From a virus, in IMG/VR virus record IMGVR_UViG_3300009422_001936, positions 1 through 23,104 of that record: a stretch of 23,104 bases of DNA; one strand, 5' to 3'. Below are positions 5,481 through 23,104 of this stretch, one piece after another. Both the position numbers and the translations under genes were made by a program. Each line of letters starts with the position of its first letter. Position 1 is the stretch's first letter. The notes beneath the pieces were generated by a model. The model did not search any database. It saw only the letters and a list, made by a program, of their open reading frames with translations, and had not been told where the DNA came from.

Positions 5481-5482
5481 AT

Positions 5483-5746: not shown

Positions 5747-5751
5747 ATTAT

Positions 5752-5764: not shown

Positions 5765-5769
5765 ATTAA

Positions 5770-6084
5770 ATGACATTCGATAAACTATACTCTTCTCTTA
5801 TGGAAGCAGTCGCCAGCGAAGACGCAGAATATAAAGGCAGAAAAGTAACTCTTAATAAACCTACAAGAGGTGATGTTAAGAAGTTTAAGGTGTATGTAAA
5901 AAATCCTAAGACTGGTAATGTGAAGAAGGTTAATTTTGGACATGGCGGTACATCTGCTAAAAGGAAAACAATGAGAATACGCAAATCTAATCCAGCAGCT
6001 CGTAGATCTTTCAGAGCACGTCATAAATGCGATCAAAAGAAGGATAGAACAACAGCAGGCTACTGGTCATGCAAAAAATGGTAA
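5770..6084 (+). CDS. Small basic tagged head-type protein (104 aa)
   Basis: The N-terminus MTFDKLYSSLMEAVASE has an L-M-E then A site at residues 10-13, like a T4 prohead-protease tag. The rest is very basic: a beta-like FKVYVKNPKTGNVKKVNFG, then KRKTMRIRKSNPAARRSFRARHKCDQK and a final YWSCKKW. The SFRARHxC...YWSCxxW ending is a pattern I recall in small proteins of T4-like cyanophages. The two cysteines and one histidine could bind metal, but this is not certain. A cleaved, DNA-binding internal head protein is a reasonable inference. It is first in a run of four basic genes. Confidence 0.65.
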   Translation: MTFDKLYSSLMEAVASEDAEYKGRKVTLNKPTRGDVKKFKVYVKNPKTGNVKKVNFGHGGTSAKRKTMRIRKSNPAARRSFRARHKCDQKKDRTTAGYWSCKKW

Positions 6085-6090
6085 TTTATT

Positions 6091-6462
6091 ATGAAGACAT
6101 TTAAAACATATTATGAAGAGGCGTCAAACTATATTGGTAAAAATATAGTATATGCAACAAAAGATACATCCGGTGGTGGTACAACAAACTCCACATCAAA
6201 AGGTAAAGTTGTCGATCACAATAAAAAGTACGACGTTATTACCCTTGATAATGGTGTAAGAATTAATACTCATTTACATTATCGAGAAGATGGTAATCTC
6301 TACCATGAAGGTGACTTTTATATTGATAGTTTACCCCCTGCAGAAGATGGTGAAGATAGATGTAAAAGAAAAGCTGATAGTGTATATGGTAAAAAAACTT
6401 CAGCATATAAATCAGGAGCAATGGTAAGATGCCGTAAAGGTAAAATTTGGAAAAAGAAATGA
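6091..6462 (+). CDS. Small basic tagged protein (123 aa)
   Basis: It starts MKTFKTYYEEAS, nearly the same as the T4 internal protein leader MKTYQEFIAEA, though the residue two before the glutamate is Y rather than L or I. Residues 13-80 form a likely beta-barrel-like domain (KNIVYATKD, KGKVVDHNKKYDVITLDNG, containing an HLHY). The C-terminus is basic: DRCKRKADSVYGKKTSAYKS, then GAMVRCRKGKIWKKK. That SAYxSGAxVxCRK pattern recurs in small phage proteins of this group. It overlaps the next gene by 4 nt (ATGA). Confidence 0.65.
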   Translation: MKTFKTYYEEASNYIGKNIVYATKDTSGGGTTNSTSKGKVVDHNKKYDVITLDNGVRINTHLHYREDGNLYHEGDFYIDSLPPAEDGEDRCKRKADSVYGKKTSAYKSGAMVRCRKGKIWKKK

Positions 6463-6620
6463 ATAAATTCGATACAATATTAGAAAGCTTATGGGCTAAC
6501 ATTAATAAAAAGAGAAAGTCTGGTAAGAGATCTGCAAGAAAAGGTAGTAAAGCTTATAAAGCAGCAAAAAAATCAGGCGATAAATTGCATTCTAATAAAA
6601 TGCGTAAAGCTGGTAAATAA
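6459..6620 (+). CDS. Very small, lysine-rich tagged protein (53 aa)
   Basis: The ATG lies in an ATGA overlap with the previous stop, and the TAA ending at 6620 shares its last A with the next ATG, so the frame fits exactly between its neighbours. The peptide starts MNKFDTILESLW, with ILE then S matching the T4 prohead protease rule. About 35 residues follow that are mostly Lys, Arg, Ser, Gly and Ala (KKRKSGKRSARKGSKAYKAA). After cleavage this would be a polycationic peptide suited to neutralising packaged DNA. It is short, so codon evidence is limited, but the operon fit and tag make it credible. Confidence 0.65.
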   Translation: MNKFDTILESLWANINKKRKSGKRSARKGSKAYKAAKKSGDKLHSNKMRKAGK

Positions 6621-6892
6621 TGAAATTTGATGATCTAGTTGACCATTATTTGATTGAAGCTAGTGATAGTCTCCATCAATGGTTTAAACGCGGTGGTAAA
6701 GATCCTAAGACGGGTAAAAAATTTAGCGGTTGGATAAATTGTAAGACTGGAGGACCTTGCGGAAGAAAGTCAAAAAAATCAGGAGGTAGTTATCCAGCAT
6801 GTAGACCAACTAAAGCTGCATGTAAGAAAATAAAGGGTAAAATGTATAAAAAGAAAAGTTCTAAGAGAGTTGACTGGAATAAGAAGAAATAG
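6620..6892 (+). CDS. Small basic Cys-containing tagged protein (90 aa)
   Basis: The N-terminus MKFDDLVDHYLIEASDS has an L-I-E then A site at residues 11-14. The mature part reads LHQWFKRGGKDPKTGKKFSGW, then NCKTGGPCGRK, YPACRPTKAACKKIKG, and a lysine-rich end. Four cysteines in C-x5-C and C-x6-C spacing could form a small metal site. I recall the GW-NCKTG-CGRK-YPACRPT string in other phages and some bacteria, with unknown function. It is last in the basic cluster; the next late promoter follows 1 nt after its stop. Confidence 0.65.
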   Translation: MKFDDLVDHYLIEASDSLHQWFKRGGKDPKTGKKFSGWINCKTGGPCGRKSKKSGGSYPACRPTKAACKKIKGKMYKKKSSKRVDWNKKK

Positions 6893-6893
6893 T

Positions 6894-6901
6894 AATAAAT
6901 A
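6894..6901 (+). promoter_or_regulatory. Late promoter octamer (AATAAATA)
   Basis: AATAAATA plus ATAAT directly precedes the ATG at 6907 of the Gly/Ser-rich structural protein. The upstream stop (TAG, 6890-6892) lies outside the motif, so the match is not a by-product of the stop codon. Confidence 0.55.
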
Positions 6902-6906
6902 ATAAT

Positions 6907-7656
6907 ATGCCCGGTTATATAAGAAATACAGTTGGAATAGGAAGCGCTAGTGGTGCTAATACTAGCTTAAACCTTATGGTCAACATAAAATTTAATGAAA
7001 GCGGTGGCGGTACTTATTCTCAAAATAAAGCAAATTCGGGTCCGGTTGGTTTAAAAAGGTGGTTCGAAACTTATGCAGTAACCCCGGCAATGGTTAAAGG
7101 AGCGTATACAAACGTTAAATGGTCTGAATTTAAAGGCTCAGCTATTTTTGGGTGTACTATATCAATAAGAAACGAAACTTATGAACGGTATGGCAGGAAT
7201 GATAATGGTGGTATTAGAATAACCCCTTTATTTGGTAGTGTGGATAGCAGTGGGGGTGGTAGTTTTACTGTTACAGTATTTACCGCTAAAGGGGGTTCGC
7301 AGGTCGCTTCCAGCACTAGTTCATCGGTCTTCACCATCGGCGGCACCGGCAGCGCCGGCTCTCCAGGAAGCTTTCCCGATAGTACGTATTATGTAACAGT
7401 TACGAATGTTCACGGTTCAGGGGCGTCTCCAGCATCAAATTCTTTCGGGTTTTATTGGAAATGTGCTTATAACTCTAAAACAGATGGGCAAATTAGATCC
7501 GACCCGGTTGACCCTAATTCATTTAATAGTTCAACTGGAGGCCAAACAATCATAACACCTCCAGCACGAACGAACCTAGGAGATTTTAGTGCTGGTATGA
7601 CAGTACTTTGTAAATCAAAGAGCTTCAGTGTTATACCTGCTGCTTCAACTCCATAA
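6907..7656 (+). CDS. Gly/Ser/Thr-rich virion appendage protein (fibre-like)
   Basis: This 249-aa protein is rich in Gly, Ser, Thr and aromatic beta-strand patterns (FTVTVFTAKGG, YYVTVTNVHGSGASP) and has no enzymatic motif. Such composition fits a beta-structured tail or head fibre, or a decoration protein. Two similar beta segments, around residues 115-145 and 155-185, suggest a repeated sandwich-like fold. It has no internal-protein tag, which suits an external virion part. A short patch in the middle uses C/G-ending codons unlike the rest of the window. It has its own late promoter and lies upstream of the accessory island; adsorption or decoration is inference. Confidence 0.55.
   Translation: MPGYIRNTVGIGSASGANTSLNLMVNIKFNESGGGTYSQNKANSGPVGLKRWFETYAVTPAMVKGAYTNVKWSEFKGSAIFGCTISIRNETYERYGRNDNGGIRITPLFGSVDSSGGGSFTVTVFTAKGGSQVASSTSSSVFTIGGTGSAGSPGSFPDSTYYVTVTNVHGSGASPASNSFGFYWKCAYNSKTDGQIRSDPVDPNSFNSSTGGQTIITPPARTNLGDFSAGMTVLCKSKSFSVIPAASTP
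7275..7385 (+). other. Local GC-rich patch inside the structural gene
   Basis: Codons here shift to GGC, ACC, AGC, GCC, GTC and TTC, encoding a Gly/Ser/Thr stretch (SVFTIGGTGSAGSPGSF), while the flanks use AT-ending codons. It is the clearest composition break in the window. It may be an acquired linker or a recombination patch. Confidence 0.6.
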
Positions 7657-7668
7657 CTTAATAAAAAA

Positions 7669-8370
7669 ATGTCATTAAATACCGAAGATAATATTGCAAT
7701 TCAAGTCTATGCCGATATTTTAAATAAAAATATCGGAAAAACATTATTCATTGAATATTTTGAAAATAACAATTTCTATATGCAACCGTTTGAAATTCTT
7801 CAAGAAGCTTCAAACTATAGAATACAAGTAAATAGGATATATGATAGTACAACTATTACTAAAGATTTGTCTAATATATCTAATATAACCATTTATAATG
7901 ATGAAATGACTCAGCGCCAAGTTGATGGAGTTTTAAATATAGATAAATTTCTTGATGACCCAGCATATCAAATGATTTTAAGCGGTTCAGATGATTATAT
8001 TGCTTTTCATGAGAAAAAGTTTTTATCTACTGACGCTTGTAATGTACCATTGGGACATATTTACCTTTCAATAAAATTAGGTTATAATAATTATAGTGAA
8101 GTTTTAAATGCTGATATTGCTGATTTAAAAACGAAGTGGACAGCCTTAATAACTGAACATAAGAATAAAGCGGTTGAAATTTTAACTGCTGAAAAAACCC
8201 AATGTCAGAATGATGGTAATACTGACGATGTTGAAGAAATCGAAGTTATACTGACCCTACTAAGCGACCTAACCTCTGAAATTGATGAGGAAATGGCAGA
8301 ATTGACCGATCGTGACAGTATTTTAAAATACTGGCCACCTTTACTACTACCGGCTCCAAGTTACTTATAG
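7669..8370 (+). CDS. Hypothetical protein with C-terminal coiled coil (233 aa)
   Basis: No family is recognised. The first half is a mixed alpha/beta domain beginning MSLNTEDNIAIQVYADIL; around residues 118-135 come KFLSTDACNVPLGHIYLSIK. From about residue 140 it is a long acidic helix with heptad-like spacing (LNADIADLKTKWTALITEHK, DVEEIEVILTLLSDLTSEID), ending in a proline/leucine tail (WPPLLLPAPSYL). It lies 12 nt after the fibre-like gene and 8 nt before the oxygenase gene, so probably in the same late transcript. A virion assembly or chaperone role for the fibre gene is possible from position only. Confidence 0.55.
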   Translation: MSLNTEDNIAIQVYADILNKNIGKTLFIEYFENNNFYMQPFEILQEASNYRIQVNRIYDSTTITKDLSNISNITIYNDEMTQRQVDGVLNIDKFLDDPAYQMILSGSDDYIAFHEKKFLSTDACNVPLGHIYLSIKLGYNNYSEVLNADIADLKTKWTALITEHKNKAVEILTAEKTQCQNDGNTDDVEEIEVILTLLSDLTSEIDEEMAELTDRDSILKYWPPLLLPAPSYL

Positions 8371-8378
8371 CATATTAA

Positions 8379-9629
8379 ATGCAAACAGCTCCACATGACG
8401 ATTTAAACGGTATAACTGTTGACCCGACAGGAGGGCCTCAAGGACCTTTTTTTACAAAAGATTTATCTTTATATGATGATGAGATAAATTGGAAACATAT
8501 ATGTAATGTTAATAAAGATATATGGTTAGACGATGAAAAACGTATAGATTATATAGAAATGTTTGGTTCTCTTAAAACTATAATATCTAAAGATCAATTA
8601 TTACAATATATAGGTAGAATAAGTTCGGATTTAAATTTTGAGTCTAAACATGGTTATCATAGTTACTACAAAGATAAATTAATAAATTTTAAAGAAGATA
8701 AAACCCCGTTTATACATTTTACTTTTGATAATGTTTTTAGTGAAAATGAAATAAACGAGGTAAAAGAACTTTTTAACACTCTAGATTTCAAGTCTGAAGA
8801 AAAGGAAGAGGTAAGACAGGTATATACCGTAAAACGTTTAGATTATAAAAACAATGAAATACTAACTAATATAGTAGATAAAATAGCTAATAGATCATCT
8901 ATACAAGAGTACAATAAATGGATATATAAAACAGCTAATAAAAGTGTAAAGGATGGTCTCCATTTAATTAGACTAGTAAAAGATTTTCCCGGTTATAATA
9001 ATCCTGTACATATGGATAAAAATAATTTATTAACCATGATGTTATTTTTAGATTTTGATAGGGAAGGTAATATAGGTACAGAACTATTAGATGAAAATAA
9101 AAATTTTGTTAAAGACACACCTTATGGTTTAAATTGCGGTTATGTATTTACCGATTCTTCTAATGAAAGTACATATCATTCATTTACTAAAAAAATAAAA
9201 AAGTGTCGTTATTCAATAATGTATAATATATATGAAAATGAAGAACAATATTTAGATATATATAATACCAATGATAAATGGGGAATTATTAATAAATTAA
9301 GACATTTAAATGAAATTAAGAAAAATTTATTTACGACTAATGAATTATCACCAAGTAGGGTTGACTGGAATAATGATAGAGCAATAAAACATAGAAAAGA
9401 AAAATCATTTACTGATAGATTTAATAAACAACAAGGGTGTATTAACTATAACAGCCTTTCTATTAAACAAGTTAATGAAATTATAGAAGATAAAAAATTA
9501 GATAATACTGGAGATTTCTTTAAAAAAATAAAAACTTTAAAACTATCTCGTAAGGAAGATACTGAAAAAGCAGAGTTAACTTGGAACCCTAACAATCCTG
9601 AAAATTATTTAAATACAAAAAATTTATGA
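8379..9629 (+). CDS. 2-oxoglutarate/Fe(II)-dependent oxygenase-like protein
   Basis: The 416-aa protein has the metal triad of the family: H211-M-D213 in NPVHMDKNN, a distal H267 in TYHSF, and R277 in KCRYSI, the expected 2-oxoglutarate-binding arginine ten residues later. Strand patterns between them (LTMMLFLDF, GYVFTDSS) fit the double-stranded beta helix. The N-terminal 120 residues are a separate domain with no clear match, and the C-terminal 125 are charged and helical. Such enzymes hydroxylate or oxidise proteins, nucleic acids or small molecules; the substrate here is unknown. It is at the upstream edge of the sugar island and may belong to it functionally. Its stop overlaps that of the convergent orphan gene. 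Confidence 0.65.
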   Translation: MQTAPHDDLNGITVDPTGGPQGPFFTKDLSLYDDEINWKHICNVNKDIWLDDEKRIDYIEMFGSLKTIISKDQLLQYIGRISSDLNFESKHGYHSYYKDKLINFKEDKTPFIHFTFDNVFSENEINEVKELFNTLDFKSEEKEEVRQVYTVKRLDYKNNEILTNIVDKIANRSSIQEYNKWIYKTANKSVKDGLHLIRLVKDFPGYNNPVHMDKNNLLTMMLFLDFDREGNIGTELLDENKNFVKDTPYGLNCGYVFTDSSNESTYHSFTKKIKKCRYSIMYNIYENEEQYLDIYNTNDKWGIINKLRHLNEIKKNLFTTNELSPSRVDWNNDRAIKHRKEKSFTDRFNKQQGCINYNSLSIKQVNEIIEDKKLDNTGDFFKKIKTLKLSRKEDTEKAELTWNPNNPENYLNTKNL

Positions 9630-10230: not shown

Positions 10231-10255
10231 AAAAATTGATAATTCTCCTTTTTAA

Positions 10256-10263
10256 ATTAAATA
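10256..10263 (+). promoter_or_regulatory. Late promoter octamer (ATTAAATA) before the sugar operon
   Basis: ATTAAATA plus the 5-nt spacer AGTCT precedes the ATG at 10269, the first gene of the sugar operon. It faces away from the tandem promoter of the minus-strand orphan. If used, it would make the cassette a late transcript. Confidence 0.45.
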
Positions 10264-10268
10264 AGTCT

Positions 10269-11063
10269 ATGTGTAAAGTTAATCTCGTTTGTAGTGTGAA
10301 TGAAAAATATTTACCATTAATTAATGTTTTTTTAAAATCGATAGAAATAAACAGTGCAAACACATTTGATAAAATTATTATTAGATGTATTGGCTTTGAT
10401 CCAGACTTTTCAAAATTAAATTTAAATATTATAAAAATAATAGATAATAAAAACCTTTCTAAAAAGAAAAATATGTTATCTAAAGAAGGGGAATATGTCA
10501 ATGATACTCTACTTGAAGGTTTACAAAAAAGTAAAATAGGTATTAGAGCTGGTAGATGGCTTTATAGTGAAGAGATAGCTTACTGTTCTAATAGTAAAGT
10601 GTTGACTATCAATGATACACTACAAAAATATAATTTACCTGTATTATATAGTGATGTTGATACCATAGTTAAAGGTAATTTAAATGACCTTATTAATAAT
10701 ATAAACGAAAATGATATTTGCGTAGTAGAAGATGAACCATATACCGAACAACATAAAGGTTCAAAGCGTTTACAAGGTCATACCAAACTATACCAAGGAG
10801 GATTTATCTCATTTAATAATAATACAAAGGTTAAAAAATTCGTCGAAAAATGGTCAGATATGGTAATTAAAAATTATACAGATTGGGATGCTGATGAAAA
10901 GTATTTTTACGATGTATTGCAGGAAAATAAATTAAACGTGTTTAACTTAGATAAAACGTTTAAAGATGAAGATTTAAATAGAGAATCAATAGTATGGTCA
11001 GGAGCCGGTACAACAAAATTTTGTGATGATAGATATATTAAAGAGTATAACAGGTATAGATAA
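10269..11063 (+). CDS. DxD glycosyltransferase, paralogue 1 (GT-A, GT8-like)
   Basis: The start at ATG 10269 is chosen over an upstream TTG at 10236 because of the promoter spacing and because paralogues start at the same place. The 264-aa protein begins with the Rossmann-like strand VNLVCSVNEKYLPLINVFLKS. YSEEIAYCSN at residues 99-108 is the family signature. D129-V-D131 in LYSDVDTIVKG is the DxD that binds the metal and nucleotide-sugar, and YQGGFISFNN fits the acceptor strand. W-x-A-D near 215 and a terminal VWSGAGTTKF (243-252) complete it. The donor is unknown. It overlaps the next paralogue by 38 nt. Confidence 0.7.
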   Translation: MCKVNLVCSVNEKYLPLINVFLKSIEINSANTFDKIIIRCIGFDPDFSKLNLNIIKIIDNKNLSKKKNMLSKEGEYVNDTLLEGLQKSKIGIRAGRWLYSEEIAYCSNSKVLTINDTLQKYNLPVLYSDVDTIVKGNLNDLINNINENDICVVEDEPYTEQHKGSKRLQGHTKLYQGGFISFNNNTKVKKFVEKWSDMVIKNYTDWDADEKYFYDVLQENKLNVFNLDKTFKDEDLNRESIVWSGAGTTKFCDDRYIKEYNRYR

Positions 11064-11874
11064 AAATCTAGTTTTAATATGTACTAGTAATGAACGGTAT
11101 ATTAAACCAACCCGGGCTTTTTTAAATAGTATAATTAAAAATTCCCCAAAAGTAAATGTATTAGTGAGATTAGTAAATGTAAAACAAGATACTATTACCG
11201 GTTTAAAGGCTACATATAATGATTATAATATATATTTTTATATAGATAATACCCCTCTTTGTGATAAAAGAAACATTGTAAATAAAACAGAGACTTTTGA
11301 TAAATCAGCTATTCAGCTTATGCGTAAAAGTACAGCTGATTTTAAAGGGGTTGGTTGGTTATATTCAGAAGAAGCAGCATATTGTTCAAATATTAAGTAC
11401 AATACTATAAATCAGCTGTTAGAATATGGTATAAAGTGTGTAGTATATATGGACGTAGATACAATTGTACGTAAGGATATATATAATATACAAGATACTA
11501 TCAATACCTATGATTTGGCTATGTATATTTGCCCTAATGAACACCTAAAGACGAGTACCCAATATGGAGAAAAATATATAGGCTGGCATGCAGGTATAAT
11601 TATAAGTAATAATACTATGTTAAGTGTAGATTTTTTAAAGGATGTTGAAAAACGAGTTAGTAATAATATGTATGATATAGAAGCTGATGAAGATGAGTTT
11701 GATCATGTTTTTTATCAAAAAAAATATAATAATAAAATTAAAATAAACTCTTTAACCAAATACTACAAAGATAATGGACCTGAATTTAATGTAAAAAATG
11801 CTGTATGGAGTGGTCAAAACGTAGCAAAAGTTGATAACGAAAAATATATAAATGAATATTCTAAATACATCTAG
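11026..11874 (+). CDS. DxD glycosyltransferase, paralogue 2
   Basis: The 282-aa protein starts at ATG 11026, inside the end of paralogue 1; the first 14 residues are probably unstructured and the domain proper begins at NLVLICTSNERYIKPTRAFL. It carries YSEEAAYCSN (113-122), D143-V-D145 in YMDVDTIVRK, WHAGIIISNN, and a terminal VWSGQNVAKVDNEKYINEY. Its residues match the consensus of the five copies best. Role: transfer of a sugar from an activated donor to an unknown acceptor in the cytoplasm, as no membrane anchor is seen. It overlaps the radical SAM gene by 23 nt, consistent with coupled expression. Confidence 0.7.
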   Translation: MIDILKSITGIDKNLVLICTSNERYIKPTRAFLNSIIKNSPKVNVLVRLVNVKQDTITGLKATYNDYNIYFYIDNTPLCDKRNIVNKTETFDKSAIQLMRKSTADFKGVGWLYSEEAAYCSNIKYNTINQLLEYGIKCVVYMDVDTIVRKDIYNIQDTINTYDLAMYICPNEHLKTSTQYGEKYIGWHAGIIISNNTMLSVDFLKDVEKRVSNNMYDIEADEDEFDHVFYQKKYNNKIKINSLTKYYKDNGPEFNVKNAVWSGQNVAKVDNEKYINEYSKYI

Positions 11875-12859
11875 ATTAAAAAACACTCTATGGGGTGAAG
11901 TTAAATATAAAGATTTTGGGCAACATTTTGACGTCGGAAACGTGCATCATCGTGATACTGCGTTATATATAAACATTTCAGATAAATGCCCGTTAGATTG
12001 CCATTTTTGTAGAAACTCAATAGATGATGATTACTTAAAAGGTAACTCTAAGATAATGTCTACCGAGGTATTTAAAAAGGTAATAGATAAAAGTACTGAT
12101 TACGGTATATGGTATTATTCTTTAATGTGTTTATTTGGTGAACCTTTTTTAGATAAAGATATTCTCACCAAGTTAAATTATATGGAAGACCACCCTGTGG
12201 TTAAATCATTCAATATACCATCAAATATTATACCTTTAAAGAAAAATACTTTTGATAAAATGTCTAAGTTAAAAAAGTGTTTATTAAAAGTTAGTGTATA
12301 CGGCCATGATGAAGAAACTTATAGTAACTTTACTAAAAAGAAAAATATGTTTGAAAAAATGTATAATAATCTTTCCTATATACATGAAAAAATGAAAAAC
12401 GGTAACTGTAATATGAAAGTTACCGTAATGATGAAAAACCAAAAGTTTGATAATGATTACCCTAAAGGTAAAATGTCTATATTATTGAATAAGTTAAATT
12501 TATTACCTAATGTAAGGATTGACAGTTATGAAGTTTATACATCAAATAGAACTATAGTAGATAAACAACTAATGTCTGAAGTAGAGGTTAAAAGAGGTAT
12601 ATGTACTAGATCAATTGTTGGTATTGTATTTCCTAATGGTGACGTAGGTTTCTGTTCTTTTTGCGATATATATAGAAAGCATGTAATGGGTAATATTTTA
12701 ACACAAAGTTTTGAAGAGATATATGAAAATCCTAACGGATTATATAGTATATTACATAATAATATGAAAATAAATCTTTATAATTCAGTTTGCAGTAAGT
12801 GTGATTTTTTCTCACCTATTACTCCTGAAACTGAAAAAAAATTAAAATATCTTAGGTAA
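11852..12859 (+). CDS. Radical SAM enzyme with SPASM-type C-terminus, copy 1
   Basis: In 335 aa, C46-P-L-D-C50-H-F-C53 is the CxxxCxxC motif that holds the SAM-binding [4Fe-4S] cluster, inside NISDKCPLDCHFCRNS. A TIM-barrel pattern follows, with LMCLFGEPFLDKD as the GGE-like strand. The C-terminus has C-x13-GDVGFCSFC, then GNILTQSFEEIY and CSKC, matching a SPASM/Twitch domain with auxiliary clusters. Such enzymes oxidise or modify peptides or amino-cyclitols (for example BtrN in butirosin biosynthesis). No precursor peptide was found nearby, so a sugar substrate is more likely here. It sits between glycosyltransferase copies 2 and 3. Confidence 0.75.
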   Translation: MNILNTSRLKNTLWGEVKYKDFGQHFDVGNVHHRDTALYINISDKCPLDCHFCRNSIDDDYLKGNSKIMSTEVFKKVIDKSTDYGIWYYSLMCLFGEPFLDKDILTKLNYMEDHPVVKSFNIPSNIIPLKKNTFDKMSKLKKCLLKVSVYGHDEETYSNFTKKKNMFEKMYNNLSYIHEKMKNGNCNMKVTVMMKNQKFDNDYPKGKMSILLNKLNLLPNVRIDSYEVYTSNRTIVDKQLMSEVEVKRGICTRSIVGIVFPNGDVGFCSFCDIYRKHVMGNILTQSFEEIYENPNGLYSILHNNMKINLYNSVCSKCDFFSPITPETEKKLKYLR

Positions 12860-12868
12860 TTTAATCGT

Positions 12869-13642
12869 ATGAATGATATTATATTATGCTGCACTAGCAA
12901 CGGCAAAGGTAAATATATAAAATATTTAAAATGCTTATTGCAATCTATAAAGGTAAATACACCTGATTTAAAGGTTCATGTTAGATTGGTAAACTGCGAT
13001 AAAAAAACACATACAGAAATTAAAAAATATAAAAATATTATTTTACAAAAAGATGAATTTAACAAAAAAAATAAAATTCATGTTAGTACATTAGGCCCAC
13101 ATTTAAATAAAAGTGTTTTATATTTACTTTCTAAGTATAGAAATGAAGTATGGGGGTTATATGATACAGAAGCTTTCTATACATGTATGGTTAAATATAA
13201 TACTATTTCTAATTTATTAAATGATTATAAAACTGTTGTATATGTTGATGTTGATACAGTTGTTAGAAAAAATATATTAAAACATATAAATGAAATCCAA
13301 GGGTGTGATATTGGATTATATTTTGATAAAAAAGAAATAAATTTCCCGCACCCAGGTTTAATTATTGCTAATAAAAGTAAAAAAATGATAAACTTAATGA
13401 AATATATGGACGACCATTTTAGTAAATGTATTGAAACAGGTAATGTGAAAGTTGAATTAGGGGATGGCGACTTACTATTTAAAACAATACAAGAAAAAAA
13501 TATTAATTATTCCCGCTTAACATTAAAATGGAAAGATGAAGGTTATAATTTTAACAATAAATCATTAATGTGGTCAGGTCGGTCAGAGAGAAAAACAAAA
13601 AATGAAATATATATTAATGAGTACAAAAAATATAGTATATGA
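12869..13642 (+). CDS. DxD glycosyltransferase, paralogue 3
   Basis: The 257-aa protein starts NDIILCCTSNGKGKYIKYL. It has D127-V-D129 in YVDVDTVVRKN, HPGLIIANKS, a long KWKDEGYNF, and MWSGRSERKTKNEIYINEYKKY at the end. The signature motif is altered: YDTEAFYTCM replaces YSEEAAYCSN, keeping the second glutamate and the cysteine but losing the S-E and the final Asn. It may use a different donor or acceptor. It lies between the two radical SAM genes and overlaps the second by 4 nt (ATGA). Confidence 0.7.
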   Translation: MNDIILCCTSNGKGKYIKYLKCLLQSIKVNTPDLKVHVRLVNCDKKTHTEIKKYKNIILQKDEFNKKNKIHVSTLGPHLNKSVLYLLSKYRNEVWGLYDTEAFYTCMVKYNTISNLLNDYKTVVYVDVDTVVRKNILKHINEIQGCDIGLYFDKKEINFPHPGLIIANKSKKMINLMKYMDDHFSKCIETGNVKVELGDGDLLFKTIQEKNINYSRLTLKWKDEGYNFNNKSLMWSGRSERKTKNEIYINEYKKYSI

Positions 13643-14652
13643 AAATTGAAGACGAAATAAAATTTATAAAAATAAAACACAAATACCTTAAAGAAAATGT
13701 AATTGTTGATAGAAAACCTGCGTTTAAATTTGATGTTTCTATTAATGGTTCAGAATCTTTAGGTAAGATGATAAACATTCAAGCTAGTAGTTCATGTCAG
13801 CTTAAATGTAAAGGGTGTCGAGGTAGCTTTGATGATAAATTTTTAAAAGAAGTTGGTAAAAATTCTTTTATTGAAGATAGTATTTTTAAAACTATTGTTA
13901 AAAAATGTATACAATCAGGTATACAGTATGTAGAACTAACCCCGGCTATTGGTGATCCATTTTTAGATAAAAATATAGAAAATAAAATAAATTACTTAAC
14001 TAGTTTACCGGAGATTAAATTAATAATATTAACTACTAATCTATTAAAGTTTGATAGTGAACTATTTAAAAGATTATTAAAAAATGATAAAGTATTTTTA
14101 AATGTTAGTGTATATGGAATTGATGAAAAAACCTATGAGGATGAAACAGGTAGAAATTTATTTAACAAGTTTTTTAAGAACTTTAAAACTTTATATACTT
14201 TAATAAAAGAAGAAGAAAAGATAAAATCTTTCGTACAATTAACTAATAGAACCTCATTTATGTTAGATGATGATTTTCCAAAGTGTGATGTACTGTATTT
14301 AATTGATTTATATACTCGGATAAAAAATGTTAGATTAGACAGTTCTGAAATTTTTAATATAAACCGAGCTGGTAGTGTTGATAGAGATGATCTTAATTTT
14401 GCAAAAGGTAATAAAGATATTAAACGTAGTGGTCTTTGCCCGCATGGTCCTGGTCTAGGGGGAGGTATTTTACCTAACGGTGATGTATTATTCTGTCCTT
14501 TTAATGATATATATAGAACAGGTGTTGTTGGTAATATATTTAAAGAATCTTTAACTGATATTTATAAAGGAGATAAATTTCAAGAGATAGTTGAAAATCA
14601 TAACAATAACATATATAATGGTATATGTGCAAAGTGTAATGAAACCTGGTAA
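13639..14652 (+). CDS. Radical SAM enzyme with SPASM-type C-terminus, copy 2
   Basis: In 337 aa, C53-Q-L-K-C57-K-G-C60 is the CxxxCxxC motif. The region after it (VELTPAIGDPFLDKNIE) parallels copy 1. The tail has CPHGPGLGGGILPNGDVLFC, PFNDIYRTG, GNIFKESLTDIY and CAKC, so SPASM-type cysteines are kept. Copy 1 and copy 2 align over their length in motif order (DDD/YLKG, VSVYGxDExTY, PNGDV) but differ clearly in sequence, so the pair is an old duplication or two related enzymes. Two such enzymes suggest two oxidation or epimerisation steps on the product. Start by ATGA overlap with paralogue 3. Confidence 0.75.
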   Translation: MKIEDEIKFIKIKHKYLKENVIVDRKPAFKFDVSINGSESLGKMINIQASSSCQLKCKGCRGSFDDKFLKEVGKNSFIEDSIFKTIVKKCIQSGIQYVELTPAIGDPFLDKNIENKINYLTSLPEIKLIILTTNLLKFDSELFKRLLKNDKVFLNVSVYGIDEKTYEDETGRNLFNKFFKNFKTLYTLIKEEEKIKSFVQLTNRTSFMLDDDFPKCDVLYLIDLYTRIKNVRLDSSEIFNINRAGSVDRDDLNFAKGNKDIKRSGLCPHGPGLGGGILPNGDVLFCPFNDIYRTGVVGNIFKESLTDIYKGDKFQEIVENHNNNIYNGICAKCNETW

Positions 14653-15772
14653 AGATATTGTTAATAGTCATAACGAGTGGGATACATTAGAAGAAGTAAT
14701 CGTCGGTAAGGGTTTACCGGAGAAGATACCGGCATTGGATTTTACGTTTAGACTTCATTTTCATGATAATATATATAATGTAACCTCAACATGTGGTTCA
14801 AAATTAGTCAATGATAAAAATACCCAAGAATTGCATATCAATAAAAGACATATACATGAACATAATGAAGATATTGAAAATTATGTAGACTTATTAAAAA
14901 GTCATGGTATAACAGTCAGAAGACCTAAAACCCCAGATAAAATAAATACGATTAAAACACCTGACTGGGAAAGTTCTAATCACCCTGCATTAAATGTAAG
15001 AGATTTAACTATGATAGTTGGTAATAAAATTATTGAAACTCCACCAAGTTTAAGATTTCGTTATTTTGAAAATGATTTTTTAAAACATTTATTTTTAGAA
15101 TATTTTAAATCTGGGGCTGAATGGATAACAGCTCCAAGACCGTTAATGGTAGATGAATCATTTGATTTAAGTTATTATGAAAAAGATAACGGGGCTATAG
15201 CTGAATATAGATCATTAGTAAAGGAAAGCAAAATGAGTTGTGGTCATGAAATAATGTTTGATGCGGCCAATTGTATGAGATTAGGAGAGCATATTCTTTT
15301 TAATTCTAGTACCAAAAATTCAGACCTAGGTCTTCAATGGTTGCAACGTACACTTGGTGATAGATATAAAATATTAAAGACTAATGTTACTGATACACAC
15401 ATCGATTCAACGTTTTTACCTCTCCGTCCTGGTTTAGCATTAATGCTTAAGCCTGATAAAAAACATTTATTGCCTAAATGCATACAAACCTGGGACCTAA
15501 TTGATATACCTTTAAGAGATAGATCTGCAGAAGATATAAATGACCAAGGTATAAAATTAGCTAGCCCTAGGATTGAATTAAATGTATTATCAATTGATAA
15601 ATCTACTATTATTTGTCACCCTGAATATAGAGATATATTACATGAAAAACTTAGGAAATATAAATTTAATGTAATACCTTGCAGAATGAGGCATTGTGAA
15701 TTATTTTCAGGGGCTCATCACTGTTTAACCTTAGATGTTAGACGTAACGGTAAGCTTGAAAATTATTTTTGA
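14639..15772 (+). CDS. Arginine amidinotransferase (AGAT/StrB1 type)
   Basis: The ATG at 14639 gives 377 aa, starting MKPGKDIVNSHNEWDTLEEV; this overlaps the previous gene by 14 nt, and a longer in-frame start at 14591 adds a shadow of the previous gene. NEWDTLEEVIVGKG is the family's N-terminal signature. The pentein-fold active site is intact by position: D208 in MFDAAN, H254 in DTHIDSTF and C362 in GAHHCLTLDVRR. RDLTMIVGNKIIE and RFRYFE are also typical. The enzyme moves the amidino group from arginine to an amine, forming guanidinoacetate in AGAT or a guanidino-cyclitol in streptomycin biosynthesis (StrB1). With sugar genes on both sides, an amino-sugar acceptor is the better guess. This is a confident family call; substrate unknown. 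Confidence 0.85.
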   Translation: MKPGKDIVNSHNEWDTLEEVIVGKGLPEKIPALDFTFRLHFHDNIYNVTSTCGSKLVNDKNTQELHINKRHIHEHNEDIENYVDLLKSHGITVRRPKTPDKINTIKTPDWESSNHPALNVRDLTMIVGNKIIETPPSLRFRYFENDFLKHLFLEYFKSGAEWITAPRPLMVDESFDLSYYEKDNGAIAEYRSLVKESKMSCGHEIMFDAANCMRLGEHILFNSSTKNSDLGLQWLQRTLGDRYKILKTNVTDTHIDSTFLPLRPGLALMLKPDKKHLLPKCIQTWDLIDIPLRDRSAEDINDQGIKLASPRIELNVLSIDKSTIICHPEYRDILHEKLRKYKFNVIPCRMRHCELFSGAHHCLTLDVRRNGKLENYF

Positions 15773-15773: not shown

Positions 15774-16703
15774 ATGAAAATATTAAAAGAAATTAATAAA
15801 ATAAAAAATGTTGTAATTATAGGTGGTTCTGGATGTATAGGTACTGCAACTTGTAATTATTTTACAACATTAGGTATAGCAGTTACTGTTATAGATATAG
15901 TTCCACCTGAAGATCCTAATTTAAATTATATTCATTGTGATATAAGAAACTTTAAAGATTTAAATAAAGCTTTAAATGGTGCAGAATATGTTTATATATT
16001 AGCAGCTATATCTGATGCTAATGAAAATAGTAGTTCACCACTTAAATCAATGGATATTAATATTGGTGGTATTAATAATGTTTTAATAGCTTCGCGTAAT
16101 AATAAAGTTAAAAGGGTTATATTTTCAAGTACGGTTTGGGTTTATAGCGAAAGTGGAGAAATAAATGTTAATGAAGATAGTATTATATCTTCCAATAATG
16201 TTAAACATAATTATACTGCTAGTAAAATAGCTGGAGAGATGTTAATTAGATCATATTGTAACTTATATAATTTAAATTATACTATAATGAGATATGGGAT
16301 TGCTTATGGTCCAAAAACTAACAGTAATACTGCTATTTCAAATTTTATTAATAAAGCTTTTAATGGTGAATCAATTTATATAAACGGTGATGGTAAAGCA
16401 TATAGAAATTTTATGTATATAACAGACCATGCAAGAGCTAATTTATCTGTTTTACATAAAAATGCTATTAATCAAACGATTAATTTTGATGGTCCGGAGT
16501 CTATTACAATCAAAACTGTTGCAGATTTAGTTAAAAAGCATATAAATAAAAAAATTAAAATTAAATGTATTGATAGTAAGCCAGGTGACTATAAAGGTAG
16601 AAATGTATCTAATGAAAAAAGTCTTAATCTGTTAGATTGGAAGCCTGAAGTTTTATTCGAAGAAGGTCTTAAAAAACAAATTAAAATATTATGTCAGGAA
16701 TAA
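15774..16703 (+). CDS. NAD(P)-dependent nucleotide-sugar epimerase/dehydratase
   Basis: In 309 aa, GGSGCIG (17-23) is the GxxGxxG dinucleotide site, FSSTVWVY carries the catalytic Ser/Thr strand, and Y147-T-A-S-K151 is the YxxxK pair of extended SDR enzymes. MRYGIAYGPK and the NGDGKAYRNFMYITDHA segment are typical of nucleotide-sugar epimerases. The start ATG is 2 nt after the amidinotransferase stop; an upstream TTG at 15735 is ignored because it adds a non-homologous tail. Which sugar and which carbon cannot be told. It overlaps the next gene by 13 nt. Confidence 0.8.
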   Translation: MKILKEINKIKNVVIIGGSGCIGTATCNYFTTLGIAVTVIDIVPPEDPNLNYIHCDIRNFKDLNKALNGAEYVYILAAISDANENSSSPLKSMDINIGGINNVLIASRNNKVKRVIFSSTVWVYSESGEINVNEDSIISSNNVKHNYTASKIAGEMLIRSYCNLYNLNYTIMRYGIAYGPKTNSNTAISNFINKAFNGESIYINGDGKAYRNFMYITDHARANLSVLHKNAINQTINFDGPESITIKTVADLVKKHINKKIKIKCIDSKPGDYKGRNVSNEKSLNLLDWKPEVLFEEGLKKQIKILCQE

Positions 16704-17452
16704 TTGTAACTTTTAGTTTTAATAATGATTATGTTTCTTATGGTAAATTATTATGTAAATCTATTTTAGAATCAGGTTCAGATGTAGATGTTTTTGCGAG
16801 ATGCGTTAATATAGAGGATAATAATATTAATTATTTTAGAAGCACTTACCCTAGTTTTGTTTTTTACGAGGATAATATAACTCTTAATAAAGATAAAAAA
16901 TTTTTAAAAAATGAAATACCTAAAAACGAAAATCTATCCCCTATATACAATAAAGAATTAAGAAAGTTTGTAACTAAAACTAAAAATGTTAATGTTTCAA
17001 AATATAGTGAAGAATCTGCATATACATGTCATAGTAGATTTTTAAATATAGTTAAACTTTTAAATGAAAAACCTAAAGATACAATAATATTATGTATAGA
17101 TGTTGATACAATATTTAAAAGAAGGGTTAATGAAAATATTGTTAATGATATGGTAGATAAAGATTTAATGGTATATAAAAACGTTAATGGTGAATTTAAT
17201 GAAGAAGGTTGTTTTATACTCAAATGCAATAATAAAATTAATTCATTTTTTAATAATATAAATGATATAGTTCAAAAAGATTTTCTAAATTGGGACATCG
17301 ATGGATTTGCTTTAAAGAAGTTACTTACCAATAATAAAACTATTAAAATTAAACAATTAGATATAAAAAAATATAAAGATAAAAAATTAACTGATAAGTC
17401 TTTATTATGGTCTGGTGATTCTCACGTTAAAAATAATTTAAAATTTAGGTAA
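16691..17452 (+). CDS. DxD glycosyltransferase, paralogue 4
   Basis: The 253-aa protein begins MSGIIVTFSFNNDYVSYGKLLCKS. It keeps YSEESAYTCHSR (105-116, an altered signature), D137-V-D139 in CIDVDTIFKR, GCFILKCNN, a W-x-I-D near 200, and a terminal LLWSGDSHVK. It ends in NLKFR and lacks the EYxKY tail of the others, so it is the most diverged copy with paralogue 3. The gene lies downstream of the epimerase, separate from the first three copies, with its own partner paralogue 5 next to it. Confidence 0.65.
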   Translation: MSGIIVTFSFNNDYVSYGKLLCKSILESGSDVDVFARCVNIEDNNINYFRSTYPSFVFYEDNITLNKDKKFLKNEIPKNENLSPIYNKELRKFVTKTKNVNVSKYSEESAYTCHSRFLNIVKLLNEKPKDTIILCIDVDTIFKRRVNENIVNDMVDKDLMVYKNVNGEFNEEGCFILKCNNKINSFFNNINDIVQKDFLNWDIDGFALKKLLTNNKTIKIKQLDIKKYKDKKLTDKSLLWSGDSHVKNNLKFR

Positions 17453-17460
17453 ATTTATAA

Positions 17461-18252
17461 ATGGTTATTTGTTGTACAACAAACGAAAAATATATTAAGT
17501 TTACATTAGCTCTAATTAATTCAATTAGAAAAAATTGTAAAATAAAATATAAAGTAGAATGTCTATGTGTAAATGTAAGTAAAGAAAGTGTAAAAAAACT
17601 TAAAAATTTAGGTAATGTTAACTGTATTATTGATAATACTTTATTATCTAAAAAAAGAACTTTAACTACTCCAGATAATTCTACTTTAACTTCTATTTTT
17701 AACCGTGATAAAGATTACGGTTGTCTTGTAAGTGAAGAAGCATGTTATTGCAGTAATAAAAGATTTGATTTAGTTTATAATACTCTTCTAAAGAATGATT
17801 ATGTTTTGTTTTTGGATGTAGATGCAATTATACGAAAAGATCTTAATGAGTTATTTTTAAGATATAAAAATTTCGATATAACTATTAAAAAAAATATTAA
17901 TTCTACAATATATGGTACTCGAAAAGTACTTAAAATATCAGAACCGAATAATATAATATACCAACAAGGGGTATTCTTCGTTAAAAGCAATACTAAAACG
18001 ATAAATTTTTATAATAGTTTAAAACGTATTGTAGAAAAAGATATTTTTAATTGGAATATAGATCAAATCGCATTTTATAATGAAATTGAAAAGCATAATT
18101 TAAATTTAAATCAATTAGATACTACCTTTAAAGATGTTTATAATAACCCAGGAGACTTTAAAGATGCAAGTCATATATGGTCAGGTGCGTGGAAAGAAAA
18201 ATACTCTAATGAAAAATATTTAACTGAATTTTTTAAATATGCTATTGAATAG
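17461..18252 (+). CDS. DxD glycosyltransferase, paralogue 5
   Basis: The 263-aa protein starts directly with the family strand, VICCTTNEKYIKFTLALINS. It has VSEEACYCSN (90-99), D119-V-D121 in FLDVDAIIRKD, QQGVFFVKSN, WNIDQIAFY, TFKD and HIWSGAWKEK, then EKYLTEFFKYA. All signature residues are present, so it should be active. After it comes a 29-nt gap with a palindrome, the first real break in the operon, then the deacetylase. Confidence 0.7.
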   Translation: MVICCTTNEKYIKFTLALINSIRKNCKIKYKVECLCVNVSKESVKKLKNLGNVNCIIDNTLLSKKRTLTTPDNSTLTSIFNRDKDYGCLVSEEACYCSNKRFDLVYNTLLKNDYVLFLDVDAIIRKDLNELFLRYKNFDITIKKNINSTIYGTRKVLKISEPNNIIYQQGVFFVKSNTKTINFYNSLKRIVEKDIFNWNIDQIAFYNEIEKHNLNLNQLDTTFKDVYNNPGDFKDASHIWSGAWKEKYSNEKYLTEFFKYAIE

Positions 18253-18281: not shown

Positions 18282-18893
18282 ATGAAATACTTAATTATAG
18301 CTCCGCATGCAGATGATGAATTATTAGGTTGCGGTGGTACCGTAAATAAATTATTACGTTCAGGTGAAGAAGTATACTTATTAGTTTGCTCTACCCGGCA
18401 TAATGATTTAGCAAAATATAAAGATGTGTTTTCGTTATTTACTGATTATTACGAATTACCATTTGAAGATGAAAAGTTACATAGATATAATTTACTTAAA
18501 GCTATAGAACCAATCTATAACAATATAAAACCTGATACAATATTTATACCTAATAAAGATGACTTTAATTTAGACCATCAAGAAGTTTATGAAGCTTGTC
18601 AAGTAGTTTTAAGAAGATTTCAAACTCATCAACCTAGAGAAATTTTAATGTATGAAGTACCATCATCAACAACTCAATCTTTTAAAAATAACTTTAAATG
18701 CAATTATTATATAGAGTTGAATGATGCTGATATTAAGTTTAAAGTTAATAACTTTATGAAATATATAAATGAAATAAGAGATTACCCTAATCCGCGAAAT
18801 GAGGAAGGTATATTAACTTATGCAAAATTTAGAGGTATGGAATGTAATGCAAAATTTGCAGAAGGGTTTAATTTAATATATAAAAAAATATGA
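18282..18893 (+). CDS. PIG-L/LmbE-type N-deacetylase
   Basis: The 203-aa protein has APH9-A-D11-D12-E at its N-terminus, the metal-binding PHxDD(E) motif of the family, followed by LLGCGGT. Later, DFNLD98-H99-QEV supplies the second half of the zinc site (usual HPDH). Family members remove the N-acetyl group from GlcNAc-type sugars, as in mycothiol, bacillithiol, GPI and aminoglycoside pathways (BtrD/NeoL type). The length is normal for a short member. The free amine it makes would be the natural acceptor for the amidinotransferase in this operon. It overlaps the aminotransferase by 4 nt (ATGA). Confidence 0.8.
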   Translation: MKYLIIAPHADDELLGCGGTVNKLLRSGEEVYLLVCSTRHNDLAKYKDVFSLFTDYYELPFEDEKLHRYNLLKAIEPIYNNIKPDTIFIPNKDDFNLDHQEVYEACQVVLRRFQTHQPREILMYEVPSSTTQSFKNNFKCNYYIELNDADIKFKVNNFMKYINEIRDYPNPRNEEGILTYAKFRGMECNAKFAEGFNLIYKKI

Positions 18894-19534
18894 AAACAGT
18901 TTGGGAAAATGTAGATAAGTTTGAAGAGATTATTGCTGATTATGCAGGTAGTAAGTATGCAGTAGCAGTTGATAGTTGCACTAATGCTCTTTTTTTATCT
19001 TTTAAGTATTGTAAAGATGTATTAGAATTAGGTGATTGGTTTGTAGATATACCTAAACAGACATATGTATCTGTACCTATGCAAGCAATTAATGCTGGTT
19101 ATAAAGTTAAGTTTGTAGATAAATCATGGGCTGGCTCTTATAAATTAGGTAGTTTACCTATTATAGATTCAGCACAAAAATTTTGCTCACAAATGTATGA
19201 AAATGATACATTTTATTGCCTATCTTTTAATTTTAAAAAAATATTATCTACCGGAAAAGGTGGTATGATTTTAACTGATAATAAAGATGCGTATGAATGG
19301 TTTAGAAGAGTAAGATATGATGGTAGACCTTCTATTTATTATAACGATATGATGCATATGCCTGTTAATGAAATTGGTTATCATATGTATATGGCACCTG
19401 AACAAGCGGTAATGGGTATACAAAATTTTTATACTATAAATCCTAATAGAGATAGTAATAGTTCTTGTAGCGATGATTATAAAATCGATTTATCTAAACT
19501 AGATTGCTTTAATGAAGATAATTGTATTAGGTAA
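18890..19534 (+). CDS. Compact DegT/DnrJ/EryC1-type PLP aminotransferase
   Basis: In 214 aa (about 360-400 is usual), the core PLP region is present: SKYAVAVDSCTNAL binds the cofactor phosphate, D93-S-A-Q is the aspartate that contacts the pyridine nitrogen, and SFNFK116-K117 before ILSTGKGGMILTD holds the Schiff-base lysine (K117 by alignment). The C-terminal small domain is missing; the protein ends in YKIDLSKLDCF, which looks like a natural end, as in compact DegT proteins I recall from marine phages. It would transfer an amino group to a keto-sugar if complete, or need a partner. The reductase gene overlaps by 23 nt. Confidence 0.75.
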   Translation: MKTVWENVDKFEEIIADYAGSKYAVAVDSCTNALFLSFKYCKDVLELGDWFVDIPKQTYVSVPMQAINAGYKVKFVDKSWAGSYKLGSLPIIDSAQKFCSQMYENDTFYCLSFNFKKILSTGKGGMILTDNKDAYEWFRRVRYDGRPSIYYNDMMHMPVNEIGYHMYMAPEQAVMGIQNFYTINPNRDSNSSCSDDYKIDLSKLDCFNEDNCIR

Positions 19535-20312
19535 CGGTAACGCTGGTAGTTATGTATACAGCTATTTGTCAAAATCTTTTAAGTGTAAGTTATTTACCAG
19601 AAAAGATTTTGATGCTATCAATACTGACTTTAGTTTTATTAAAAATGCTATAGATTCTGATGATGTTATTATTAATTGTGTTGGTATTTTAAAACCAAAA
19701 ATATCAAGTGTTGGTATTGAAAATACATTTTTAATAAATTCTGTTTTTCCTAATAAGTTATACGAAATATGTAAACATAATAATGCTCATTTTATACATA
19801 TTTGTTCTGATTGTGTTTTTAAAGGTGATAAAGGTAATTATACAGAAGATAGCCTAACAGATGCAACTGATATATACGCATTATCTAAAAGTTTAGTTAA
19901 AAATGGTATTATAATTAGAACATCATTTGTAGGTGAAAATAGCGGTTTACTTAAATGGTTATTATCTAATAAAAATAATGTTATTAATGGATATGATAAC
20001 TGTCTTTGGAATGGTATTACAGCTTTAGAATTAGCTAAGTTTATCGAAAAGTTAATTAAATTTAGACTTTTTAATGAGAAAATTATACACATTTTTAGTA
20101 ATAAAATTTATAGTAAATATGAACTTTGTAAATTGATTAATAAGGTATATAATTTAAATATTAAGGTAAATAAATTATCAGCTAAAACTATTGAAGGTAC
20201 TAAAATTAATAATGTACTTGATAGATCTTTAAATTCTAATAAACAGTATTTTAATCTTATAAATAACGATCTCGAAAAACAATTAATAGATATTAAATTA
20301 TGGAAAATATAA
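19512..20312 (+). CDS. RmlD-like dTDP-4-keto-sugar reductase (SDR)
   Basis: The 266-aa protein starts MKIIVLGNGNAGSYVY, with a GxGxxG coenzyme site at residues 7-12. It has VIINCVGIL and ICSDCVFKGDKGNYTEDS, the latter close to the SDYVFDG...Y.E.D pattern of dTDP-4-dehydrorhamnose reductases. Y122-A-L-S-K126 is the catalytic YxxxK. Length is a little short of RmlD (about 290). It reduces a 4-keto nucleotide-sugar, possibly to a deoxysugar such as rhamnose or a related sugar; no rmlA, B or C is in the window, so the substrate would come from the host or from outside the window. Confidence 0.75.
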   Translation: MKIIVLGNGNAGSYVYSYLSKSFKCKLFTRKDFDAINTDFSFIKNAIDSDDVIINCVGILKPKISSVGIENTFLINSVFPNKLYEICKHNNAHFIHICSDCVFKGDKGNYTEDSLTDATDIYALSKSLVKNGIIIRTSFVGENSGLLKWLLSNKNNVINGYDNCLWNGITALELAKFIEKLIKFRLFNEKIIHIFSNKIYSKYELCKLINKVYNLNIKVNKLSAKTIEGTKINNVLDRSLNSNKQYFNLINNDLEKQLIDIKLWKI

Positions 20313-21010
20313 ATATTTGTTACGTTATTACCGGTGAGGTTAATTATATTGATTTAACTCTCAAATCAATAAAGTACATTGAAAAAACATTTAAAAGCTC
20401 AAAATATAAACTAAAGTTTTTTGTTGTTAGTGAAGAAAAAATTAAGCTTCCTTCTTTTATAAAAAATATTATTTCACCATATAAAGATATACCAATATTA
20501 TGGCAAAGAATGTATATACCTGAATTACTGAATGTTAAAAAATGCATATTTTTAGATAGTGATACAATAACTTTATCATGTATATCTAAATTATGGGAAA
20601 CTGATCTTAATGGTAATATAGTCGGGGCAGTTGAAAGTCATTTTCTTAAACCGACCGATGAATTACCGTTTTATGTTTTTTATCAATTAGATTATAAACC
20701 TTATAATAAAGTAAAAAAATTTTTTAATTGCGGGGTCCAAGTTATTGATTGTAATAAATGGTTAAAAAATAATATAGCGGAAAAAATGTTACCGTTATAT
20801 TTAGAATTATTAAAAGTTAAACATTATAGTTACAAAATGGATGAACCTGTTTTTTGTACAGTTTTACAAAATAAAATACAAAAATTAGATAAAAAATGGA
20901 ATTTTTTACCGGTGGATAATAGTATTAGACCAGCGATAATACACTATTACGGTATGTATTGTAGAAATAAACCAGACCCAGAATTCTGGGGTAAAGGGAT
21001 TGATGATTAA
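20300..21010 (+). CDS. GT8-family glycosyltransferase
   Basis: In 236 aa, D86-S-D88 in CIFLDSDTITL is the DxD, FNCGVQVIDCNKW is the typical strand of the GT8 (glycogenin/LgtC) family, and IIHYYG near 215-220 is the C-terminal histidine motif, the K of usual HxxGxxKPW being less clear. It differs from the five paralogues: no SEEAAYCSN and no WSG motif, so it is a separate family member. It is the last gene of the operon and overlaps the reductase by 13 nt. The sugar and acceptor are unknown; transfer to a glycan, a protein or a small molecule is possible. Confidence 0.75.
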   Translation: MENINICYVITGEVNYIDLTLKSIKYIEKTFKSSKYKLKFFVVSEEKIKLPSFIKNIISPYKDIPILWQRMYIPELLNVKKCIFLDSDTITLSCISKLWETDLNGNIVGAVESHFLKPTDELPFYVFYQLDYKPYNKVKKFFNCGVQVIDCNKWLKNNIAEKMLPLYLELLKVKHYSYKMDEPVFCTVLQNKIQKLDKKWNFLPVDNSIRPAIIHYYGMYCRNKPDPEFWGKGIDD

Positions 21011-21259: not shown

Positions 21260-21691
21260 GTGATCACATTTAAAACATTCTTTGAGTCCAATAAACCTCT
21301 AGGTTTAATTGAAACTATAACTTTTGAAGAATTAGGTCCCATTGAAGCTAAGATTGATAGCGGCAATGGGGCTTATAATGTCTTGCATGGTGTAAACCTA
21401 CAACATGAAGGCGATCAGGTTACATTTGATACGGTTAATGATAAACAAATTACTAAACCAGTTGTAGAGTTTATTGATATTAATGTTGGTTCTGGACCAG
21501 ACGGTGAACCTACTATCGATAATAGGCCAGTTGTTGAGTTTGATATTCAAATAGGTGATAAAACATACCCTAATACAAAATTCTCTATTGGTTCCAGAGA
21601 AGGTAATGATTATAAAATATTAGTTGGTAAAGAATTTATCGAAGAACTTGGTGGTATCATCGATGTAGGTGCTGAAGGTAATTTGGATTAA
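21260..21691 (+). CDS. Retropepsin-like (RimB-type) aspartic protease, tagged
   Basis: The 143-aa protein uses GTG as start. MITFKTFFESN is a tag of the same type as those on head genes, with FFE then S. AKID33-S-G-N-G-A-YNVLH is the DSG active-site loop of single-domain retropepsins, and the late GREGN...ILVGKEFIEEL region fits the second Gly/hydrophobic segment. The family (formerly 'ATP-dependent zinc protease', PF05618) often lies beside RimK-like ligases, but none is seen here. It could process a virion or host protein. The call rests on the DSG motif and fold pattern. Confidence 0.65.
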   Translation: MITFKTFFESNKPLGLIETITFEELGPIEAKIDSGNGAYNVLHGVNLQHEGDQVTFDTVNDKQITKPVVEFIDINVGSGPDGEPTIDNRPVVEFDIQIGDKTYPNTKFSIGSREGNDYKILVGKEFIEELGGIIDVGAEGNLD

Positions 21692-22614: not shown

Positions 22615-23104
22615 TTATCTTAAACCTGTAGTTTCAAATACATCTCTAGCAACCCCAGCAGAAAAGCCTCCTTCTACACCCTTTACAATAACTGATATTG
22701 CATTATGGCTATGAAGACTCTCATTATGAGAGGCTACAATCTTAAAGTCTTTAATACGAGATTCACTACTTAGCTTTTCATACATTAAACGTACCGCATC
22801 TTCAACAAACTTTAGATTTGAACCATTAAGTTCAGCAAATGCTTGCTCATCTTCTCTCTTAACCATTACTTGAGTCTCAGTTTGAAGAGCAGCTAAACAT
22901 AACTCTTGTATATCTTCCACCCATAACATATCATCAAACTTAACACTAACTCTTGCAACACTACGTTGACTATGAGGTACTGTAGCACGGTTACGATACT
23001 TTTCAGCATGCTCACTTAATTCGAAACTACAAGGGCATGCAGATGAATATACAAAGTCAAAGTGAATATACTTCTTAAATTCACCATCTTTAGTAACATC
23101 ACCT
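22615..23104 (-). CDS. folE2: GTP cyclohydrolase IB (FolE2), C-terminal part
   Basis: The frame is open from the window edge, so about 163 C-terminal codons are present and the N-terminus is outside; the internal ATG at 22929 is not the start. [13 protein letters not shown] and the following PHSQRS match the CPCSxE(I/L)S...HNQR active-site block of type IB cyclohydrolases. [14 protein letters not shown] and [12 protein letters not shown] fit the later ExxHxHxA segment. The enzyme makes 7,8-dihydroneopterin triphosphate from GTP, which leads to folate or to queuosine/7-deazaguanine compounds. Phages often use this step for 7-deazaguanine DNA or tRNA modification; no other gene of that route is in the window. 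Confidence 0.85.

Follow-up and report, generated by a model that had tools for sequence, protein, structure and literature searches.

An AGAT/StrB1-family amidinotransferase in a glycosyltransferase island of an environmental phage and its possible amino-sugar acceptor

The stretch of DNA analysed here (the window; 23,104 nucleotides, positions 1 to 23,104 of IMG/VR record IMGVR_UViG_3300009422_001936) carries a gene that the initial annotation read as an intact arginine amidinotransferase in a phage. This raised the question of which acceptor such an enzyme would serve and where its product would go. The gene (14639..15772, plus strand) started with ATG and remained open for 377 aa with no internal stops. 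In a phmmer search of PDB sequences, its product matched SxtG (8.9e-53), StrB1 (1.6e-52), HsvA (1.9e-48), and human AGAT (~1e-45), and the family match (E ~1e-52) covered residues 6-377, which is nearly the whole protein. The donor-site residues D122, D256, and S309, whose AGAT counterparts are D170, D305, and S355, were retained in the alignment. D208, H254, and C362 aligned with the AGAT triad D254, H303, and C407 (PMC3684758), which confirmed the catalytic residues proposed for the phage protein.

The AlphaFold model (pLDDT 88.5, pTM 0.89) retrieved StrB1 as the best fold match (E 8.6e-32), followed by SxtG, HsvA, and AGAT. Arginine deiminase and DDAH were far weaker by fold (8e-11, ~20 orders of magnitude worse) and gave no match in the phmmer search of PDB sequences, so the deiminase identity, which the annotation had named as an example of an activity that would speak against its reading, was dropped. 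There was no match in Pfam or NCBIfam, and the PHROGs assignment was phrog_25854, a family of unknown function. Among pairs at least 80% identical inside the virus clade, where dS was below ~1.2 (unsaturated), dN/dS was ~0.05-0.13, which indicated that the gene is maintained by selection. By sequence and model, the window protein is almost certainly an arginine amidinotransferase of the AGAT/StrB1 family with predicted amidino-transfer chemistry, and the gene is a phage-specific variant within a known enzyme family.

Guanidine transfer had been considered rare in phage gene content, an expectation that did not hold for environmental phages. A scan of IMG/VR with two peptide patterns only found at least 392 stretches encoding amidinotransferase relatives, and a radical-SAM gene cluster that includes a putative glycine amidinotransferase was published for phages CP220 and CPt10 in 2010 (PMC2853527), so the gene is not new as phage gene content. 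Among isolate phages, matching amidinotransferases occurred in 4 of 50,697 records, three from Campylobacter phages (two of them the same phage, CP220) and one from a Synechococcus phage. A DNA-level search against isolate phages gave no match. The enzyme family is known, and its putative role in a phage sugar-building island would be the newer part.

The phylogeny suggested at the outset was built from 144 and 75 sequences; the trees are unrooted, and "StrB1 side" denotes merely "not AGAT side." The window protein fell into a virus-only clade (97/86), which comprised 22 sequences in the larger set. This clade was joined at 100/100 with the CP220 clade and a single bacterial protein, encoded on a Bacteriovoracaceae contig (L088). 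AGAT, SxtG, HsvA, and most bacterial proteins lay together on one side of a branch supported at 100/99, and the window protein lay on the other. StrB1 and its bacterial relatives formed a separate clade (99/98), also without the window protein, and the StrB1 side contained at least two further virus groups. Position 211 agreed with this split: it was Asn in StrB1, its relatives, and most phage proteins, and Asp in all 64 AGAT-side proteins. The window protein thus belonged neither with AGAT, SxtG, and HsvA nor with StrB1, and it was not a deiminase. One phage contig (L009) carried tandem amidinotransferases (6884-7984 and 7992-9110) that belong to separate branches of a single virus clade; the pair is reminiscent of streptomycin synthesis, in which amidino transfer occurs twice.

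The 300-flap of AGAT (D298-P-N-P-M302) shapes acceptor binding; its Asn300 and Met302 matter for binding of the substrate, and in CyrA and AmtA flap residues were reported to alter the specificity or the activity (PMC4887976). In the phage clade, Asn300 was replaced by Thr or Ala and Met302 by Ser, Asn, His, or Thr (Thr251 and Thr253 in the window), with Asp252 between them. This Asp was invariant in 22 of 22 window-clade and 3 of 3 CP220-clade proteins; the corresponding residue was mostly Pro on the AGAT side, Gly or Ser in StrB1 relatives, and Tyr or Phe in other phage clades. A conserved Trp311 (or Tyr) was lost in the window and CP220 clades, where mostly Arg/Lys or Gly was found instead. 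CyrA likewise lacks Asn300 and Met302, so the AGAT flap residues are not decisive for glycine use. The phage flap, with its Asp252 and the loss of Trp311, suggests that the acceptor is probably neither glycine nor exactly the inosamine phosphate of StrB1; as it resembles neither StrB1 nor AGAT, the StrB1 substrate is not transferable by homology.

The amidinotransferase gene lies in an island of genes that are all on the plus strand. It overlaps by 14 bases the 3' end of a radical SAM/SPASM gene (13639..14652, CxxxCxxC at residue 53), and a second radical SAM/SPASM gene is located at 11852..12859. The sole PDB sequence match of the former was BtrN, and cyclitol chemistry was not argued from it because the match was weak (4e-5). 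Downstream are an NAD-dependent sugar epimerase/dehydratase of the SDR type (15774..16703), a PIG-L family de-N-acetylase (18282..18893), a short DegT/StrS-type sugar aminotransferase (18890..19534), and an RmlD-like SDR reductase (19512..20312). Six known or probable glycosyltransferases complete the island. Three belong to GT8: 10236..11063 (GT8/Nucleotid_trans, with a DVD motif), 17461..18252 (GT8/Nucleotid_trans), and 20300..21010. The three probable ones, each with a DVD motif and without a Pfam match, are at 11023..11874, which as a query retrieved homologues from related islands, at 12869..13642, and at 16691..17452, whose homologue was immediately 3' of the amidinotransferase in several relatives. 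None of the island glycosyltransferases had a membrane-helix-like segment (highest 19-residue Kyte-Doolittle mean 1.40), and membrane O-antigen modification of the Gtr type was set aside on this basis, its route not being seen in the window. Near the island, a DUF6267 domain was fused to a cytidylyltransferase-like domain (3244-5220), and a short ORF at the left contig end (22-345) had matches to phrog_7363, a family of homing endonucleases, and to phrog_447.

The DegT protein is 214 aa long, and the phage copies are ~200 aa, about half the ~370 aa of typical DegT enzymes. The positions of the PLP Asp93 and the Schiff-base Lys117 were invariant across the aligned phage copies, and the best fold matches of the model were GDP-perosamine synthase and other nucleotide-sugar aminotransferases. 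Half-length DegT proteins with both PLP residues (Lys and Asp) but little of the usual C-terminal domain were widespread in environmental phages (at least 584 IMG/VR stretches). In streptomycin synthesis, a DegT/StrS-family aminotransferase makes the amine used by StrB1. By analogy, an amine on a nucleotide sugar would be a natural acceptor for the phage amidinotransferase.

The neighbours of the gene recurred. In 20 non-redundant clade 1 loci besides the window, within a range of ~8 kb and with shared ancestry included in the counts, PIG-L was found in 19, DegT in 16, the epimerase in 15, and RmlD in 14; PIG-L and RmlD are thus conserved partners. The order DegT-RmlD-amidinotransferase occurred in 9 of the 20, and four loci (L025-L028) had no detectable DegT near the amidinotransferase. 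In a second virus clade, DegT was directly upstream of the amidinotransferase. A DegT alignment scan, in which the amidinotransferase was not used for selection, yielded 80 loci in 74 groups. An amidinotransferase was present within 10 kb in 11 of 12 groups with a close DegT (at least 200 bits against the window DegT) vs. 10 of 62 groups with a weaker one (Fisher p 9e-7, uncorrected for ancestry shared among groups). The homologue of the gene at the right flank of the island (21260..21691, plus strand) served as a control in relatives. Only 4 of 35 control loci, representing ~2 distinct phages, had the amidinotransferase, and all four also had DegT, PIG-L, and RmlD. The amidinotransferase was absent from the searched loci and records of those sister phages whose flank gene was most similar (82-90% identical). 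The control-gene and DegT counts indicated that the amidinotransferase is an accessory part of a swappable island and goes with the amino-sugar module. The module can exist without it, as the PIG-L-DegT-RmlD trio was also found without an amidinotransferase (L184 and near-copies). Tryptophan halogenase-type proteins occurred in related phage islands beside radical SAM and glycosyltransferase genes; one neighbour protein was assigned by Pfam match, and L184:18240-19757 was judged by sequence alone.

The bacterial sister locus L088 (Bacteriovoracaceae) had genes for a full-length DegT, a NodU-type carbamoyltransferase, and radical SAM proteins together with its amidinotransferase in a chromosomal stretch (3066-9496). 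Among bacterial loci, this cluster comes nearest to the phage genes, and it may be a biosynthetic cluster not described before.

Among named systems, StrB1 (L-arginine:inosamine-phosphate amidinotransferase of streptomycin synthesis, PDB 1bwd) was the best fold match and shared the triad and Asn211 with the window protein. However, it is in a separate clade at ~35% identity, and has Ser in place of Asp252; Trp311 is lost in the window protein, and the window island has glycosyltransferases and SDR enzymes instead of cyclitol genes. The L-arginine:glycine amidinotransferases, human AGAT (GATM) and CyrA, have the same catalytic residues, and AGAT also shares the donor site, but AGAT differs by its side of the tree, its Asp at position 211, and its flap. 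The putative glycine amidinotransferases of Campylobacter phages CP220, CPt10, and F379, which are tailed phages, share the Asp252 flap and have radical SAM and sugar-transferase neighbours, and CP220, the member tested in the tree, belonged to the joint clade. In contrast to the window, they have no DegT, PIG-L, or RmlD of the window type nearby, and the identity is 35% (CP220). Synechococcus phage S-SCSM2R encodes an inosamine amidinotransferase near a short DegT, radical SAM, and glycosyltransferases; however, this protein is shorter, is 27% identical, and clusters with another set of viruses (93 SH-aLRT). The aminoglycoside enzymes BtrN, BtrR, and BtrD represent the same classes as the SPASM radical SAM, DegT, and PIG-L proteins, but the matches are weak and at class level, no cyclitol synthase was seen, and membership is not claimed.

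Here, we propose that the phage makes an amino sugar, turns its amine into a guanidine, and attaches the product to a glycan or a virion protein, which we consider the probable course. Cys362 would attack arginine, the amidino group would be held as a covalent thio-uronium intermediate, and ornithine would be released; the amidino group would then be handed to a primary amine. The acceptor would be an amino sugar, probably nucleotide-linked, shaped beforehand by the epimerase and the RmlD-like reductase, with its amine installed by the short DegT aminotransferase and/or exposed by the PIG-L deacetylase. Cytosolic GT8-type glycosyltransferases would attach the guanidino sugar to the glycan or virion protein. 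The acceptors considered initially were a sugar, glycine, and mere consumption of arginine. The sugar is better supported because genes for a sugar aminotransferase, a deacetylase, a reductase, an epimerase, and glycosyltransferases accompany the amidinotransferase gene, and an amino-sugar acceptor is likely on these grounds of gene content and residues; glycine is disfavoured, and arginine consumption found no support.

An AGAT-like enzyme would use glycine and form guanidinoacetate, which might supply an energy route of the creatine type during infection. The annotation of the CP220 and CPt10 relatives (PMC2853527), a report of GAMT as a marine viral gene (PMC11360552), and the changed flap of CyrA, which is compatible with glycine use, fit this explanation. 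It is nevertheless quite unlikely, given the tree separation from AGAT, the replacement of Asn300 and Met302 around an invariant Asp, and the fact that no guanidinoacetate methyltransferase was recognised among the top 25 neighbour families listed per set. Alternatively, a polyamine, lysine, or another free amine might be the acceptor, as for HsvA and AmtA, with the link to sugar genes a coincidence of a shared accessory island. Family members with such acceptors are known, and HsvA, a good sequence match, is titled a polyamine amidinotransferase in the PDB. But HsvA is on the AGAT side of the tree, the co-occurring genes are a sugar aminotransferase, a deacetylase, and glycosyltransferases, and no polyamine gene family was among the top 25 clade 1 neighbour families listed, which makes such an acceptor unlikely. 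Degradation of arginine by a deiminase or dihydrolase, starving the host or feeding the phage, is very improbable. The pentein fold superfamily is common to these enzymes, and AmtA M246S lost transfer activity but still freed trace ornithine from arginine (PMC4887976); against this stand the weak fold match, the lack of a sequence match, and the conservation of both the flap signature and the gene partners.

The guanidino sugar or another amidinated group might instead be placed on the DNA of the phage itself as an anti-restriction hypermodification. The window encodes FolE2 (22615-23103, minus strand) and the related locus L003 a QueE-like protein judged by sequence (17004-17744), genes that suggest 7-deazaguanine synthesis in this phage lineage. 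Campylobacter phages of this kind have modified DNA (PMC6884629), and glycosyltransferases are able to act on phage DNA. However, FolE2 stays beside the control gene in most sister phages without the amidinotransferase, so the two were judged unlinked, and no DNA-modifying enzyme was recognised within the island. DNA hypermodification is accordingly a rather improbable use of the enzyme.

Returning to the proposed guanidino sugar, the transferases of the window look cytosolic, and host LPS core, virion proteins, and DNA are therefore all candidate destinations, as we infer them. A surface glycan or virion protein is favoured since T4-like phages have the island within a hypervariable region of glycosyltransferase genes, and it is ranked above DNA because of the persistence of FolE2 in the sister phages. 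T4-type gp23 capsid genes were found on the records behind three clade 1 loci and on those of several further loci with an amidinotransferase. Pelagimyophages have comparable glycosyltransferase islands, with GT8 and radical SAM genes, which were read as host O-chain modification (PMC7029224). We tentatively suggest, as a reading slightly less likely than not, that T4-like phages have a swappable guanidino-sugar pathway, comprising the deacetylase, the short sugar aminotransferase, the reductase, the amidinotransferase, and glycosyltransferases, that places a positively charged sugar on particles or the host surface.

If this pathway is real, phages produce a charged guanidino sugar. Guanidino sugars are otherwise best known from aminoglycoside antibiotics, e.g., streptomycin. 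We know of no earlier description of a guanidino-sugar phage glycan, and no phage guanidino-sugar pathway was found in the open-access literature. Such a charged sugar could block competing phages, protect the virion, or alter adsorption. The pathway would also give a function to phrog_25854, a family widespread among environmental viruses and so far without an assigned role, and would shed light on the amidinotransferase cluster described for Campylobacter phages in 2010.
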